A DNA stretch of 9,498 nucleotides from NCBI GenBank assembly GCA_021792615.1, contig JAJYUJ010000061.1, positions 1-9,498 on the forward strand. The letters run 5' to 3'. The notes under the pieces were generated by a model that was given only the letters and a program-made list of their open reading frames with translations, was not told the origin of the DNA and ran no database searches. The stretch is from a bacterium. GTDB taxonomy: Bacteria; JAMCPX01. The position numbers and the translations under genes were made by a program. Shown here piece after piece: positions 1 through 7,305 of the stretch. Positions within the stretch are counted from its first letter, which is position 1; each line of letters starts with the position of its first letter.

Positions 1-159
1 ACCGCGGCAAAGACAGAAATTGAAAATGCGCGAAAAAAGGTCAATGAACTCAACACGGCTTTGAATGCACTGCAAAGCAGAATAAAGAAAAACAGTTCTT
101 CGCTGGAAAAGGTCGAGAGCCTGCTCAACCAGGCTCTTGTACAGCTTCCCAAGGAATAG
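1..159 (+). CDS. C-terminal end of an unrecognised coiled-coil protein (partial)
   Basis: The reading frame is open from the first base and ends at TAG (157-159), giving 52 residues of a protein that begins outside the window. The piece is rich in Lys, Glu, Asn, Ala and Leu. Hydrophobic residues are spaced as in a coiled coil (around VNELNTALNAL and LEKVESLLNQALVQL), with no catalytic motif. purN starts 11 bases after the stop, so the two are probably co-transcribed. It could be the tail of a structural, membrane-anchored or DNA-associated coiled-coil protein; the fragment does not allow a family call. That it is coding is supported by the uninterrupted frame and biased composition; its function is unknown. 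Confidence 0.6.
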   Translation, partial: TAAKTEIENARKKVNELNTALNALQSRIKKNSSSLEKVESLLNQALVQLPKE

Positions 160-170
160 GCTGAGCGTGT

Positions 171-1079
171 ATGAAGAAATCGAAGATTAAAGACTCAAGA
201 TTAAAGATTCGGGATCCGAAAGCAGAGAGTCAGGATTCAGGATTCAAAAGCGGGGATTCGAAATTGAAGATTAAAGACTCAAGATTAAAGATTCGGGATC
301 CGAAAGCAGAGATTCAGGATTCAGGATTCAAGACCGGGGATTTGAAATTGAAGATTAAAGACTCAAGTTTAAAGATGCGGGATCCAAACACAGGGATTCA
401 GGACCCAGGATTCAAAACCGGGGATTCGAAACTGAAGATCGGGGTACTCGTATCGGGGAACGGAAGTAATCTCCAGGCAATTATCGATAGAATAAAAGAA
501 GGAAAATTACATGCAAACGTGCAAGTTGTTGTGTCGGACAATGCGAACGCCTACGCCGTCGAAAGGGCAAAACACAGCACTATTCCCGTGCATGTCGTTG
601 ATTACAAGGCATTCCCCAGACGGGAGGAAGCCGAACAGTCAATTATAGCTCTGCTGAATGATTATCATGTCGGGCTCGTGGTACTTGCCGGCTATATGAA
701 GCTGATGACAAAAAAATTTATCAATGCTTTCCCTTTGAGGATAATCAACATACACCCTGCACTCCTTCCATCGTTTCCGGGTATAAACGTCATACAAAAA
801 GCCATGAATTACGGAGTAAAATTCACGGGATGCACGGTTCATTTTATCGATGAAGGTACGGACACAGGCCCGATTATTATCCAGGCAGTGGTGCCTGTTA
901 TGGACAACGACACCGAAGAAACGCTTGCGCAGAGAATCCACGAAAAAGAACACGTCATATATCCTCTGGCGATACAGCTTTTTGCCGAAAACAGGCTTGT
1001 GGTAAAGGACAGGCGCGTCTTTGTAGATGGCTATATGTACTCCGGGCAGTCGCCTTTTATTAATCCGTACAATCCATAG
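171..1079 (+). CDS. purN: Phosphoribosylglycinamide formyltransferase with a tandem-repeat N-terminal extension
   Basis: PurN transfers a formyl group from 10-formyltetrahydrofolate to glycinamide ribonucleotide, the third step of de novo purine synthesis, in the cytoplasm. The catalytic core runs from about residue 89 to 302. It carries the phosphate-binding SGNGSN (95-100), the NIHPALLPSFPG block with N193 and H195, and D231 in DEGTDTGP. These match E. coli N106, H108 and D144 with a constant offset of 87. The core is therefore complete and of normal length (about 215 residues). Residues 5-88 are three 28-residue repeats (KIKDSRLKIRDP and relatives), not part of the family. ATG 171 is used here because the frame is open from it, but its Shine-Dalgarno (AGG at 158-160) is weak. 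ATG 375 (M69), TTG 348 or CTG 432 could be the real start, and CTG 432 sits where the family's Met is expected. The neighbours are not purine genes. The enzyme call is very firm; the start is uncertain. Confidence 0.95.
   Translation: MKKSKIKDSRLKIRDPKAESQDSGFKSGDSKLKIKDSRLKIRDPKAEIQDSGFKTGDLKLKIKDSSLKMRDPNTGIQDPGFKTGDSKLKIGVLVSGNGSNLQAIIDRIKEGKLHANVQVVVSDNANAYAVERAKHSTIPVHVVDYKAFPRREEAEQSIIALLNDYHVGLVVLAGYMKLMTKKFINAFPLRIINIHPALLPSFPGINVIQKAMNYGVKFTGCTVHFIDEGTDTGPIIIQAVVPVMDNDTEETLAQRIHEKEHVIYPLAIQLFAENRLVVKDRRVFVDGYMYSGQSPFINPYNP
176..434 (+). repeat. Heptamer-based tandem repeat tract (3 x 84 bp) inside the purN reading frame
   Basis: Three adjacent 84-base units occupy 183-266, 267-350 and 351-434. 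By hand count, units 1 and 2 differ at 4 positions and units 2 and 3 at about 12. Each unit splits into four 21-base blocks encoding seven residues with Asp at the fourth place (KIKDSRL, KIRDPKA, ESQDSGF, KSGDSKL). These split further into twelve 7-mers close to RRGATTC or AAGATTA (aagatta, aggattc, gggattc). A partial copy (gaaatcg) precedes the first unit from 176. Only the purN frame is open; TAA recurs in both other frames of every unit, for example at 188-190 and 202-204. Degenerate heptamer tracts like this usually lie between genes, so this one may be a former leader sequence now within the open frame. Confidence 0.93.
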
Positions 1080-1099: not shown

Positions 1100-2419
1100 A
1101 TGACGGAAAGGTTCTTCGATGTTGCTGTTATTGCAGAGGGGTTGAATGGTTTGCTTGCCGCGTATGAGCTATCCAGGACCGATGTATCCATCGTCCTCAT
1201 CGACAACTACAGGCCGTCTCTCGAAATAGACGGTTATCTGTTTAACTATTACCCGCAGCACATATTCTCATACTACGAACTGCCGGATCTGCTCAGGCAA
1301 TTGCATGGAGTCTTCGAAACCTACACGAGTCCAGCGTTTCAACTGGTCCTGCCGGACAGGAGGGTTGATATGTATTCGGAGTGGAAAAAAGGCATAGCGG
1401 AGACAAACAAAAGGTTTCAAGGCAGGGCTTCCGCTCTTGCGGAATACCTGTCCCGGGAACAGGCCATTTTGGAGTTGCTCCTGAAGTTTAAAGAGACAGA
1501 AGATGAACACTCCGGCATGATGAAGAGGACCTTTCAGAGGTTGAGGACAGGGAAACACCTGCTCAGAGAAAAACAGAGGGCATACGAAAGCCTGAAAAGG
1601 CTTCTTAAGGAAGATATACCTTCCATGGTTTTCCATGCGGCCCTCAGACAGTTGTTTCCGTGGATGAATGGCGATAGCGCGCTCTCCGATATGCGGTGCG
1701 TACCTGCCTTATTGAGGAAACGGTTTTACCTTGTTGGGGGCAAGGACAGTCTGAAGAACACCATACTTCATGAGCTGATGCGGCGTAACGTCAATATCGT
1801 GCAAGAAAAGGAGATCGATCATATAGAGTACAGGAAATACTTCACCATTGCCCTCGATCATGAGCAATCAGTGCGTTCGAGAACTATCGTTGCAGAACCC
1901 ATCTATGAACGGACGCTCTCCCTGCTCCCCTCGGATTCCTACAGGAATATAAAGAAAAAATATTATGTGGACAATATATTTGCAGGCGTTCACCGTTCAT
2001 GCCTGCCGGAAGTCTATAACCGCGTCAACAGTGCCATTATAATCTCCGACTATAAGCAGCCCCTTTCCAATGACAACCTGATTTTTATGGACACCAATCC
2101 CATAAGTGATATCAAACGGGCAAAGGACGAAATGGCTGCACTTACCCTGTGTACCCTGATACAGGAAAATAGTATATCGAAAATATCCGCGATACGGAGC
2201 GCAACCATTGAGCATGTGAAAAAGTTTATGCCGTTTTTCGATGATCTTGTAGAGAACATCTATTTTACCGATCCCTCTATTCTTTGGGACAACAAGGGTG
2301 TGCCGGTATATAAAAAAGGTGTCCTGCTGCTCAATGATGAATTTATAAACCAGTATACTTTGGATTCAAAATATGCATATATAAAAAAGCAGATAAAAAA
2401 ACTTATTTCAAATCTCTAA
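1100..2419 (+). CDS. Degenerate FAD/NAD(P)-dependent oxidoreductase-like protein
   Basis: This 439-residue protein has the outline of the phytoene desaturase/amine oxidase flavoprotein superfamily. An N-terminal beta-alpha-beta Rossmann segment (about 7-36) ends in an acidic strand end, IVLID. A middle segment, FYLVGGKDSLKNTIL (209-223) followed by VNIVQEKEIDHIE, resembles the GG-containing second FAD-contact region. Its key motif is worn: the usual GxGxxG is AEGLNG at 12-17, the first Gly being replaced. The Arg-rich GGR segment after the first strand and the C-terminal glycine-rich FAD motif are not seen. FAD binding may therefore be reduced or lost, leaving a pseudoenzyme or a diverged subfamily. 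ATG 1100 lies 20 bases after purN with only a weak upstream GGA. The SRPBCC gene follows after 10 bases and is almost certainly co-transcribed. The fold assignment is moderate; the substrate is unknown. Confidence 0.6.
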   Translation: MTERFFDVAVIAEGLNGLLAAYELSRTDVSIVLIDNYRPSLEIDGYLFNYYPQHIFSYYELPDLLRQLHGVFETYTSPAFQLVLPDRRVDMYSEWKKGIAETNKRFQGRASALAEYLSREQAILELLLKFKETEDEHSGMMKRTFQRLRTGKHLLREKQRAYESLKRLLKEDIPSMVFHAALRQLFPWMNGDSALSDMRCVPALLRKRFYLVGGKDSLKNTILHELMRRNVNIVQEKEIDHIEYRKYFTIALDHEQSVRSRTIVAEPIYERTLSLLPSDSYRNIKKKYYVDNIFAGVHRSCLPEVYNRVNSAIIISDYKQPLSNDNLIFMDTNPISDIKRAKDEMAALTLCTLIQENSISKISAIRSATIEHVKKFMPFFDDLVENIYFTDPSILWDNKGVPVYKKGVLLLNDEFINQYTLDSKYAYIKKQIKKLISNL

Positions 2420-2424
2420 GGAGG
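2418..2424 (+). promoter_or_regulatory. Strong Shine-Dalgarno for the SRPBCC gene, overlapping the upstream stop
   Basis: AAGGAGG lies 5 bases before ATG 2430 and shares bases with the TAA stop of the preceding gene (2417-2419). This fixes the start of the SRPBCC gene and suggests that ribosomes finishing the upstream gene load directly onto it. Confidence 0.85.
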
Positions 2425-2429
2425 CATGT

Positions 2430-2873
2430 ATGTCCGTTAAAGAACTGACCAGAACGATAGAGATTCAAGGTACCCCCGACAAGTGTTATAAAAAGATTTG
2501 CAATTTTGAGAGTTATCCCGAATGGCAGTCCGCGGTGCAGCAGACAAAAGTTATCAAAAAAGACAAAGACGGAAGGCCCAAAACAGTCGAATTCAAAATC
2601 TCGGTCATAGGTAAGGAGATACGGTACGTTTTGAGTTACAAATATGATGATAAGAACCATTCGTTGAGCTGGACATACGTCGAGGGCGATGTAAGGGACG
2701 TCAAGGGAAGCTATACCTTTGAAAAAATCGACAAGGATACAACCCTTGCAACATTTAGCGCTGCTGTAGATCCGGGGTTCTGGGTCCCGGGCCCCATCAT
2801 AAACACCCTGAACAATGTCGCCATGAAGAAATCCATGGAAGAGCTTAAGGATGCGGTTGAGAGCAAAAAATAG
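2430..2873 (+). CDS. SRPBCC-fold (START/polyketide-cyclase-like) protein
   Basis: The 147-residue product has the typical length and pattern of the SRPBCC superfamily (polyketide cyclase/dehydrase and COQ10-like proteins), a helix-grip fold enclosing a hydrophobic pocket. Characteristic parts are the opening strand (ELTRTIEIQG), a short helix ending in ICNFESYPEWQSAV (about 23-36), then alternating strands (TVEFKISVIGKEIRYVLSY; SLSWTYVEGDVRDVKGSYTFE). A long C-terminal helix (NVAMKKSMEELKDAVE) closes the pocket. There is no signal peptide, so it should be cytoplasmic. Family members bind or move lipids, quinones or polyketide-like molecules; the ligand here cannot be read from sequence. The tight spacing after the oxidoreductase-like gene suggests they may work on the same small hydrophobic compound, which is inference. 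Confidence 0.85.
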   Translation: MSVKELTRTIEIQGTPDKCYKKICNFESYPEWQSAVQQTKVIKKDKDGRPKTVEFKISVIGKEIRYVLSYKYDDKNHSLSWTYVEGDVRDVKGSYTFEKIDKDTTLATFSAAVDPGFWVPGPIINTLNNVAMKKSMEELKDAVESKK

Positions 2874-4927: not shown

Positions 4928-6502
4928 GTGAACAGCATTATCGATACTATTGCCCGGTGGGCTTTTGAACTTGAATACGATGATATTCCCGGCCGGATTA
5001 TAGAAAAGGCAAGACTGCAGGTTCTGAATATTATTGCCGCTGTACTTTCAGGCAGGTACTGTGGGGCGCTGGAACCCATGGGATCCGTCAACCTGCCTGA
5101 TGGCGCGGCTACCGTTATCATGGGGGGCAGAAAAACGAATGCGGAGAACGCTGCATTTATCAATGCCCTGTATTCCATGAGCTTTGATTTTGATGATTAC
5201 CTGTTCATGGGACACACGGGACATTCTTCTGTCCTTGTCCCCCTGGCGCTGGCAGAAGAAAAGGACTTGAACGTAAAAGCCCTGCTGCTGGCACAGGTCG
5301 TTACCAACGAGGTGGAAGGCAGGCTCGGTGCTTCCGTCCTGCTCGGACACCACAATGGTCAGATGTGGTCATATATCCACACAGCGGGTGCTGCAGCGGC
5401 GGCATCGAAATTGCTTGGCCTGTCAAAAGAACAAACAGCCTCGGCCATTGCCCTGTCCCTTTATCAACCCAATTATCCCCTTGCCCCGGGCTTTATGATG
5501 AGTGATTCAAAACTTCTGACAGCATCCATACCGATAGTGTCCGGCTTGATGTGCGCCAAACTTGCACAGGCTGGCATGAAAGGCAACGCGGGCCTGCTTG
5601 AAGCTGAGAATGGTTTTTTATCCCGCTTTGCATACCTGCCGCTTCCACACATGCTTTCAGGACTCGGAGCATGGTGGGTAACGGACACAATCGCATTCAA
5701 GCCGTATCCCGGCTGTGCATACATAGACACTTCGGTGGACAGTGCGTTCAGGATTATGGATGAAGTCAAGCGAAAGACAGGCACATCTCTGGAGACCACG
5801 GAAATAAGGAATATTGATGTTTTTGCGAATATGCTCACCATGGGTATGAATGCACTTTCTGAAATGTATGATGACGGTACCCTGCACCCGGTGAATATAA
5901 ACTTTTCCATTCCCAAAAGTGTAGCCATTGCAATTTTGAACAAATCCCTGCGTGCCGGGCACCTGTCTTCTGAGGCGCTTGGAAAGGATGAACAGGCGAT
6001 AAAATCCCTGTCACAAAGAATAAAACTTTATCATGACTGGCGGTATACATTAAAGACACAAGCATCGTTTTACGGTTCCCTTGGCGGTAAATTCGTCCTC
6101 GATGGTATTGGCTTTTTCAAATTGATAAATGCGTTTCGCAGTATGAGACGGGACCTTCCTTCAATGCCGTTCAACCTGATGGGTTTATTAAAAGCCTGGC
6201 GCATATTACCTGCCCGGGAGAAGCATACCATAAAAAGAGGTATCATGAAAAAGGACGATTATGTCAAGATGGACGGATTTACATTTTCATTCGGTGCACG
6301 GGTAAGACTCGAGATGAATGACGGACAGGTTTATGAGGCCGAATCAATTATACCGCGGGGTGCTTCAGATATGGATCGGAAACAGGTAGTTATGGAGAAG
6401 CTCGCAGACGCACTGGATTCCGAAGACAAGGCAAATGCCCTGTATGGACTGTTGAATCCTCAAACACCGGCGAGGGAATTTATGAAGGGCATTTTGAAAT
6501 GA
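4928..6502 (+). CDS. MmgE/PrpD family protein
   Basis: MmgE/PrpD proteins include 2-methylcitrate dehydratase, cis-aconitate decarboxylase and related lyases or epimerases acting on carboxylic acids in the cytoplasm. Family traits here are the helical N-terminus (IIEKARLQVLNIIAAVLSG), the block NAENAAFINALYSMSFDFDDY with D89/D90 then the His-rich GHTGHSS (95-101), and HTAGAAAAASKLLGLS. The second domain contains FKPYPGCAYID. At 524 residues it is longer than the usual 450-480; the extra sequence seems to lie in the C-terminal half, about residues 355-440, which includes a basic SMRRDLPSMPF segment. Translation starts at GTG, 13 bases after the metallophosphoesterase stop, so it is probably in the same operon. 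No prpB or prpC neighbours are present, so methylcitrate dehydratase activity should not be assumed. Confidence 0.9.
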   Translation: MNSIIDTIARWAFELEYDDIPGRIIEKARLQVLNIIAAVLSGRYCGALEPMGSVNLPDGAATVIMGGRKTNAENAAFINALYSMSFDFDDYLFMGHTGHSSVLVPLALAEEKDLNVKALLLAQVVTNEVEGRLGASVLLGHHNGQMWSYIHTAGAAAAASKLLGLSKEQTASAIALSLYQPNYPLAPGFMMSDSKLLTASIPIVSGLMCAKLAQAGMKGNAGLLEAENGFLSRFAYLPLPHMLSGLGAWWVTDTIAFKPYPGCAYIDTSVDSAFRIMDEVKRKTGTSLETTEIRNIDVFANMLTMGMNALSEMYDDGTLHPVNINFSIPKSVAIAILNKSLRAGHLSSEALGKDEQAIKSLSQRIKLYHDWRYTLKTQASFYGSLGGKFVLDGIGFFKLINAFRSMRRDLPSMPFNLMGLLKAWRILPAREKHTIKRGIMKKDDYVKMDGFTFSFGARVRLEMNDGQVYEAESIIPRGASDMDRKQVVMEKLADALDSEDKANALYGLLNPQTPAREFMKGILK

Positions 6503-6523
6503 GCCCGGAATATGCGTTCTTAA

Positions 6524-6614
6524 AACAGGGACGAGTTTGAGACGATGCGAAGTGAAACACCAACGAAGTTTTACGATCAGGGGCGAACAGCTCTTCCCTG
6601 TTACATTTCTTTTG
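6524..6614 (+). terminator. Inverted repeats and possible weak terminator after the MmgE/PrpD gene
   Basis: AACAGGGACGAG (6524-6535) is complementary to CTCTTCCCTGTT (6591-6602) at 11 of 12 positions, across a 55-base loop. A competing local hairpin pairs CAGGG (6578-6582) with CCCTG (6596-6600) and is followed by the T-rich ttacatttctttt. This could terminate the upstream operon or act as an attenuator before nth. Stems are short and the T-run is interrupted, so support is limited. Confidence 0.3.
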
Positions 6615-6615
6615 G

Positions 6616-6639
6616 TTAAACAACAAGGAAACTGTTTAA
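6616..6639 (+). promoter_or_regulatory. Hairpin presenting the nth ribosome-binding site in its loop
   Basis: TTAAACA (6616-6622) pairs perfectly with TGTTTAA (6633-6639) around a ten-base loop that contains AAGGA (6625-6629). The stem ends three bases before ATG 6643. In linear sequence this Shine-Dalgarno is 13 bases from the ATG, longer than usual, so the stem may affect translation. The pairing is AT-rich and could be chance. Confidence 0.3.
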
Positions 6640-6642
6640 GTT

Positions 6643-7305
6643 ATGAACAAATCCAGACCTGACATCGTTACGATCATCAAGCGGTTGAAGAAGGTATACA
6701 AACAATGGGATGTTCCCATTGTAACGTTGATCAGCAACAGGAGCCATGATCCGTTCAGGATACTGATAGCGACGATCCTCAGCCAGAGAACGAAGGACGC
6801 TGTTACGGCCCGGGCATCGGAAAGTCTTTTTAAGGCGGCATCCACGCCGCATGCGATGGCAGGCATGCCGGTAAGGCAGATTCAGGATATCATATACCCG
6901 GTTGGCTTCTACAGGGTAAAGGCAGGGTGGATCAGGGTTGTTGCACAGGCAATCGACGGCAGGTACAAGGGCGTTGTGCCGGACACCATCGAAGAGCTCG
7001 TAAAACTCCCGGGGGTCGGGAGGAAGACCGCAAATCTCGTTGTTGGACTTGGATATCGAAAACCTGCGATATGCGTCGACACGCATGTACACAGGATCTC
7101 GAACAGATTCGGGTATATAAAAACAAAAACACCGTTTGAATCAGAAATGGCTCTGCGGAAAAAACTACCCGTACGATACTGGATCATCTACAACGACCTG
7201 CTCGTTGCGCTCGGCCAGGCGATCTGTCATCCGGTATCTCCGAGATGTTCAATCTGCCCCGTTACGGCATACTGCATGAAGACCGGCGTCGGAAGAAGCA
7301 GATGA
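6643..7305 (+). CDS. nth: Endonuclease III, iron-sulfur DNA glycosylase/AP lyase
   Basis: Nth removes oxidised pyrimidines from DNA and cleaves at the resulting abasic site (base excision repair). The 220-residue protein has the complete family signature: an early helix block with ILIATILSQRTKDAV, the helix-hairpin-helix LPGVGRKTANLVV with catalytic Lys K128, and VDTHVHRISNR with catalytic Asp D146. The K-to-D spacing of 18 equals that of E. coli K120/D138. The C-terminal [4Fe-4S] motif C-x6-C-x2-C-x5-C is intact at C195, C202, C205 and C211. The GQAICHPVSPRCSICP form of the cluster region resembles versions seen in anaerobes and archaea more than the E. coli one. A 140-base gap precedes the gene, so it may have its own promoter, though none stands out; cstA follows after 50 bases. 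Confidence 0.96.
   Translation: MNKSRPDIVTIIKRLKKVYKQWDVPIVTLISNRSHDPFRILIATILSQRTKDAVTARASESLFKAASTPHAMAGMPVRQIQDIIYPVGFYRVKAGWIRVVAQAIDGRYKGVVPDTIEELVKLPGVGRKTANLVVGLGYRKPAICVDTHVHRISNRFGYIKTKTPFESEMALRKKLPVRYWIIYNDLLVALGQAICHPVSPRCSICPVTAYCMKTGVGRSR

Follow-up and report, generated by a model that had tools for sequence, protein, structure and literature searches.

The window analyzed here, the whole of contig C39 (9498 bp), comes from the 2.54 Mb genome G000, and comparisons were made within a set of nine genomes (G000–G008). In the window's genus purN was found in four species (G000, G001, G002 and G004), and G005, G006 and G007 belong to sister genera; the G004 assembly (DAHXOM010000043.1) is independent of that of G000. 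The left end of the window carries the 3' end of a gene (1..159, + strand) that terminates with TAG at 157-159 and whose product, 279 aa at its full length on contig C43, has receiver-domain and coiled-coil-like parts as read by eye; the same gene is the upstream neighbour of purN in G001, G002, G004, G005 and G007. The most likely purN start codon is an ATG at 171..173 (+), 11 nt past this stop, and an ATG lies at the same distance in G004 and G002. No good Shine-Dalgarno motif precedes ATG171, and G004 has AGGA. The start is followed by a degenerate heptamer tract (176..441, +) coding for a Lys/Asp/Ser-rich tail that is predicted to be disordered (see below), by a CTG codon (L88; 432..434, +) adjoining the ancestral start region, and by the conserved PurN (phosphoribosylglycinamide formyltransferase) domain (435..1079, +). 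Translated from ATG171, PurN has 302 residues, and residues 89-277 match TIGR00639 over profile positions 2-190 of 192 (255.8 bits, cut-off 150.1); since the match begins at residue 89 from profile position 2, about 87 N-terminal residues are extra.

Two methods delimit the tract similarly. Tandem Repeats Finder (TRF) reports an 84-bp unit present in 3.1 copies at 176-439 (91% matches, score 430), with further rows at 7, 14 and 42 bp, and a heptamer scan, which called nothing in a shuffled control of 344,780 bases, places it at 176-441 (266 bp) with the consensus RRGATTN. The 84-bp higher-order units lie at about 176-259, 260-343 and 344-427 on the + strand. The heptamers are degenerate, the longest perfect run being 20 nt (2.9 copies). 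The purN frame contains no stops across the tract and the other five frames contain 3, 7, 6, 8 and 3; one heptamer added or removed anywhere brings a stop by codon 8-105, and changes of 84 bp, a multiple of 3, keep the frame. In the tract-coded peptide, of which DPNTGIQDPGFK is an example, an Asp stands at each seventh residue after the Met. These results bear out the preliminary description of this DNA in nearly all structural respects: a repeat ahead of an otherwise normal PurN, open only in the purN frame, adding about 87 residues with Asp every seven, and sensitive to single-heptamer changes while tolerating 84-bp ones. Its nested 7-, 21- and 84-base periodicity holds for 7 and 84, and at 21 bp is only weak, with a longest perfect lag-21 span of 27 nt and no TRF row.

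An open frame is by itself weak evidence for coding in such a tract. When a 266-bp tract was simulated from independent non-coding G000 heptamers, a given frame was open with probability 5e-5; when a 12-heptamer (84-bp) unit was repeated, it was open in 4.5% of cases with non-coding G000 heptamers and in 37% with the tract's own heptamers. Openness as proof of coding was thus rejected, and it is the comparative evidence on start codons that carries the case.

The PurN proteins of the sister genera lack the tract, start as MGKLKLGV (G005), MSKIKLAV (G006) and MGRLKLGV (G007), and begin a few codons before the point where the G000 core starts, giving an ancestral start pattern of M-x-K-(L/I)-K-(L/I)-(G/A)-V-L. 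At the old start region the window's genus has (D/N/G)-S-K-L-(K/R)-I-G-V, and the Leu codon there is CTG, TTG, TTA and TTA in G000, G001, G002 and G004 respectively, so that the old Met has been lost. G004 is the most telling relative: its PurN (MKKFKTQDSKF...) has 53 residues before GVL, encoded by a tract that differs from that of G000 and is likewise in frame, and its only in-frame starts are the homologue of ATG171 and one GTG (GTG55). This GTG corresponds to V92, which lies in the first beta strand (modelled at residues 88-94). Initiation there would truncate that strand, so that only the ATG171 homologue would leave it intact in G004. G001, which has a short heptamer-like remnant, can start at an ATG that adds about 33 residues or at an internal one that adds about 15. 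In G002 the counterpart of ATG171 lies in another frame and runs into stops, so that PurN has to begin internally, at an ATG adding only about 15 residues. The homologous tract of G002 (contig C166) is decayed. Comparison of purN 5' ends therefore finds the tract in frame in at least two species (G000 and G004) and absent from the sister genera, which supports the earlier proposal that translation of the repeat provides the N-terminus of PurN.

G000 has no second PurN, other matches being weak (about 30% identical) and confined to the formyltransferase region. PurT was considered as a backup GAR transformylase and rejected, as no match in G000 is above the family cut-off (at most 55.7 bits versus 502), leaving purN as the one GAR transformylase gene that this genome was found to have. 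Together with the G004 start evidence and the tract-free sister genera, this argues that at least part of the repeat is translated, and in G000 such translation appears, from comparison of the sequences, close to obligatory. Some extra N-terminal sequence is predicted to be translated in all four purN-bearing species of the genus; the extensions in G001 and G002 are short or decayed, so the tail would be variable and partly dispensable.

The alternative that best survives is that the repeat is an untranslated leader, with PurN starting within it or at its end and the open frame being incidental. The G000 tract does offer in-frame candidates (TTG codons 32, 58 and 60, ATG at codon 69, and CTG at codon 88, i.e. 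CTG432), G002 must use a downstream start, and chance openness is not rare for an 84-bp unit. Against this, the spacing of ATG171 is kept in G004 and G002, G004 has no start between its ATG and the first strand, both G002 and G004 have TTA where the old start region lay, and a start at a TTG or at ATG375 would still leave about 20 or more tract-coded residues; we consider this reading unlikely. Apart from ATG171 the purN frame has a single ATG within the tract, at codon 69 (375..377, +); the C43 allele has ATT at this position, so this start is not conserved. Use of the TTG codons or of ATG375 could make the G000 tail shorter.

A second allele of the tract is present on contig C43, which ends in the purN locus and shares 410 bp with C39, differing at 10 sites; C43 was considered as a second tract-bearing locus and rejected, being the overlapping end of the same one. 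The 170 bp of flank account for one of these sites and the 240 bp of tract for nine (Fisher p 0.05); over these 240 bp the alleles are equal in length, the third unit being incomplete on C43. We infer that two strains in the sample lie behind the two alleles. Several allele differences are those that also separate units (e.g. AGT versus ATT, with the first unit of one allele and the second unit of the other), which suggests exchange between 84-bp units; unit order in C39 and C43 may be affected by assembly, and the assembled copy number of the units may be wrong. The tract changes comprise eight nonsynonymous and one synonymous over 191 and 49 sites respectively, a pattern to be expected if the peptide is not under selection, whereas the PurN core compared between G000 and G004 has pN 0.107 and pS 0.637 (pN/pS about 0.17). 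Between alleles the tail thus looks unconstrained. In an AlphaFold model built from a four-sequence alignment only, the core is folded and residues 1-85 have pLDDT below 50, and the tail is accordingly predicted to be disordered.

The heptamer belongs to a dispersed family, strongest in G000 (63+41 matches versus 3+2 for the reversed-pattern control) and G004 (79+41 versus 14+7), rare in G001-G003, G005 and G007, and with no occurrence in G006 or G008 by pattern search. Family tracts mostly lie between genes, and many have stops in every frame; this applies especially to the A-type (RRGATTA) tracts of contig C22, where positions 1-40000 hold about a dozen tracts, mostly A-type and with all frames closed. 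A tract on contig C6 (2239-2424) has a 36-bp higher-order unit of heptamers plus one base, and its six frames are closed. A perfect heptamer specifies one heptapeptide in all three sense frames, AAGATTC giving KIQDSRF without stops, whereas RRGATTA heptamers introduce TAA, and A-rich forms read on the antisense strand meet a stop whichever frame is used; captures by genes are therefore predicted to be in the sense orientation and mostly C-type, and were found so. The many intergenic copies had been named in advance as a possible objection to coding if frame were not conserved; the copies are there, and the loss of frame is not, as at least two species retain an in-frame purN tract and several other genes carry in-frame copies.

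In-frame captures were found on at least eight different proteins, all in the sense orientation. Besides PurN, they affect the C-terminus of Tmk in G000 (51-bp units), the C-terminus of GlyQ in G000 (42-bp spacing) and G004, the interdomain linker and a second loop of NadE in G000 and G004, and, in G004, the CobQ linker, the C-termini of an RND adaptor and an IclR-type regulator, and a lipoprotein-like N-terminus. The name Tmk rests on sequence and position before holB. This Tmk-like gene lies upstream of holB in G000 (C67:44000-49000, about 2351-2545, minus strand), its C-terminal tail consists of 17-residue (51-bp) units, and in the holB frame, too, the DNA of the tail is free of stops upstream of the holB Met. 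Comparison with orthologues covered PurN, GlyQ, NadE and CobQ, and there the repeat-coded residues are absent from the orthologues. At the CobQ and NadE linkers the orthologues have other, variable sequence, indicating that the heptamers sit where variation is tolerated. A further insertion in the G004 CobQ (5152-6882), TNRTVHHTKAGETLCVPLIRGRL, is not made of heptamers and is lacking in G006 and G007.

The recurrence of a similar heptapeptide on at least eight proteins raises the question of whether the KIQDSRF-like peptide is a selected module, acting for instance in localisation or enzyme assembly. If it were a shared disordered module spread by the DNA repeat over the core enzymes of the genus, a DNA-level repeat family would be the source of a common protein tag. 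We regard both the selected module and its spread as very unlikely, since the alleles show no visible constraint, tails range in length from roughly 15 to 90 residues, the majority of copies sit between genes and many have no open frame at all, and any sense frame of the heptamer automatically yields this peptide.

Nor do the data favor the phase-variation switch on purN put forward as a possibility in the preliminary description, in which gain or loss of single heptamers would toggle PurN off and on. Any single-heptamer change does give an early stop, and heptamer phase variation exists in the promoter region of hmw1A of H. influenzae, which has 14-24 heptamer repeats (PMC8262952), but the longest perfect run here is only 2.9 copies, the C39 and C43 alleles do not differ in length over the 240 bp of tract that they share, the 84-bp unit keeps the frame, and the only GAR transformylase gene found would be a poor one to turn off. 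Heptamer slippage of this kind was rejected, and the switch is most improbable. An assembly or binning artefact, which the breaks of C39 and C43 inside or next to the tract and their 10 differences might suggest, is extremely unlikely given the in-frame tract in the independent G004 assembly and the heptamer-like remnant in G001.

We think it probable that the purN tract is instead a tolerated in-frame growth of the dispersed, genus-specific heptamer repeat, translated as a tail with no evident sequence-specific role. Near the very beginning of the purN reading frame, after the start codon and before the part coding for the first beta strand, the tract would have grown from a short native sequence at codons 3-7, such as AAATTGAAGATT, that already resembled two heptamers. 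This putative seed would have expanded by slippage or recombination, followed by tandem copying of an 84-bp block; a K-L-K-I motif at both ends of the tract (MKKLKI... in the C43 allele and ...SKLKIGVL) fits growth from a resident match. PurN would have stayed readable because a C-type heptamer in sense orientation carries no stop whichever frame is read and 84 is divisible by 3. The resulting disordered tail would have 53-90 residues in G004 and G000 and at least 15 in G001 and G002, and the same process may have given heptamer-coded tails or linkers to other housekeeping enzymes.

The purN tract belongs to known kinds of repeat system, namely dispersed heptamer families with intragenic copies and in-frame repeat insertion in housekeeping proteins. 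The GGGNATC and GGGGA(T/C)T repeats of Xanthomonas and Nostoc (PMC4692102) likewise consist of heptamers in tandem at scattered sites, share a GATT-type core and lie mainly between genes, with about a third intragenic in Nostoc, but the purN family is A-rich and degenerate, has a genus-specific consensus and lacks four regular G-tracts. Runs of three or more G are sparse in the purN tract and without regular 7-nt spacing, and assignment to the quadruplex-forming GGGNATC class was rejected. The TAACTGA heptamers of Beggiatoaceae (PMC4679880) are also dispersed, with some in open frames near protein ends and with stop codons limiting orientation; they differ in sequence and lie mostly just upstream of start codons, where they are thought to be regulatory, whereas here the repeats are captured within core enzymes, including their linkers. 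The four-heptanucleotide elements of Geobacter metallireducens (PMC2700814) are similarly multicopy and occur between and within genes, but are GC-rich (GGACCGG consensus) and fixed at four units. Rickettsia palindromic elements place repeat DNA in frame in many housekeeping proteins (reviewed in PMC10969869), as here, but are palindromic and of fixed form whereas the purN tract is tandem; its RNA fold is no better than that of shuffled sequences (z -0.38), and with no stem-loop signal membership of this class was also rejected. A search of the PMC literature for STRR heptanucleotides in cyanobacteria found no match.

If the tract did arise by tolerated in-frame growth, several states of one essential enzyme are in hand, tract-free in the sister genera, minimal in G001 and G002, and long in two diverged forms in G004 and G000, and together they would make a clear natural case of non-coding tandem repeats becoming protein, with parallel captures in other enzymes. 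This would explain how 7-base repeats enter genes in one orientation only while the genes survive, and it carries a warning for such genomes, in which start-site annotation and N-terminal 'domains' may be repeat DNA.
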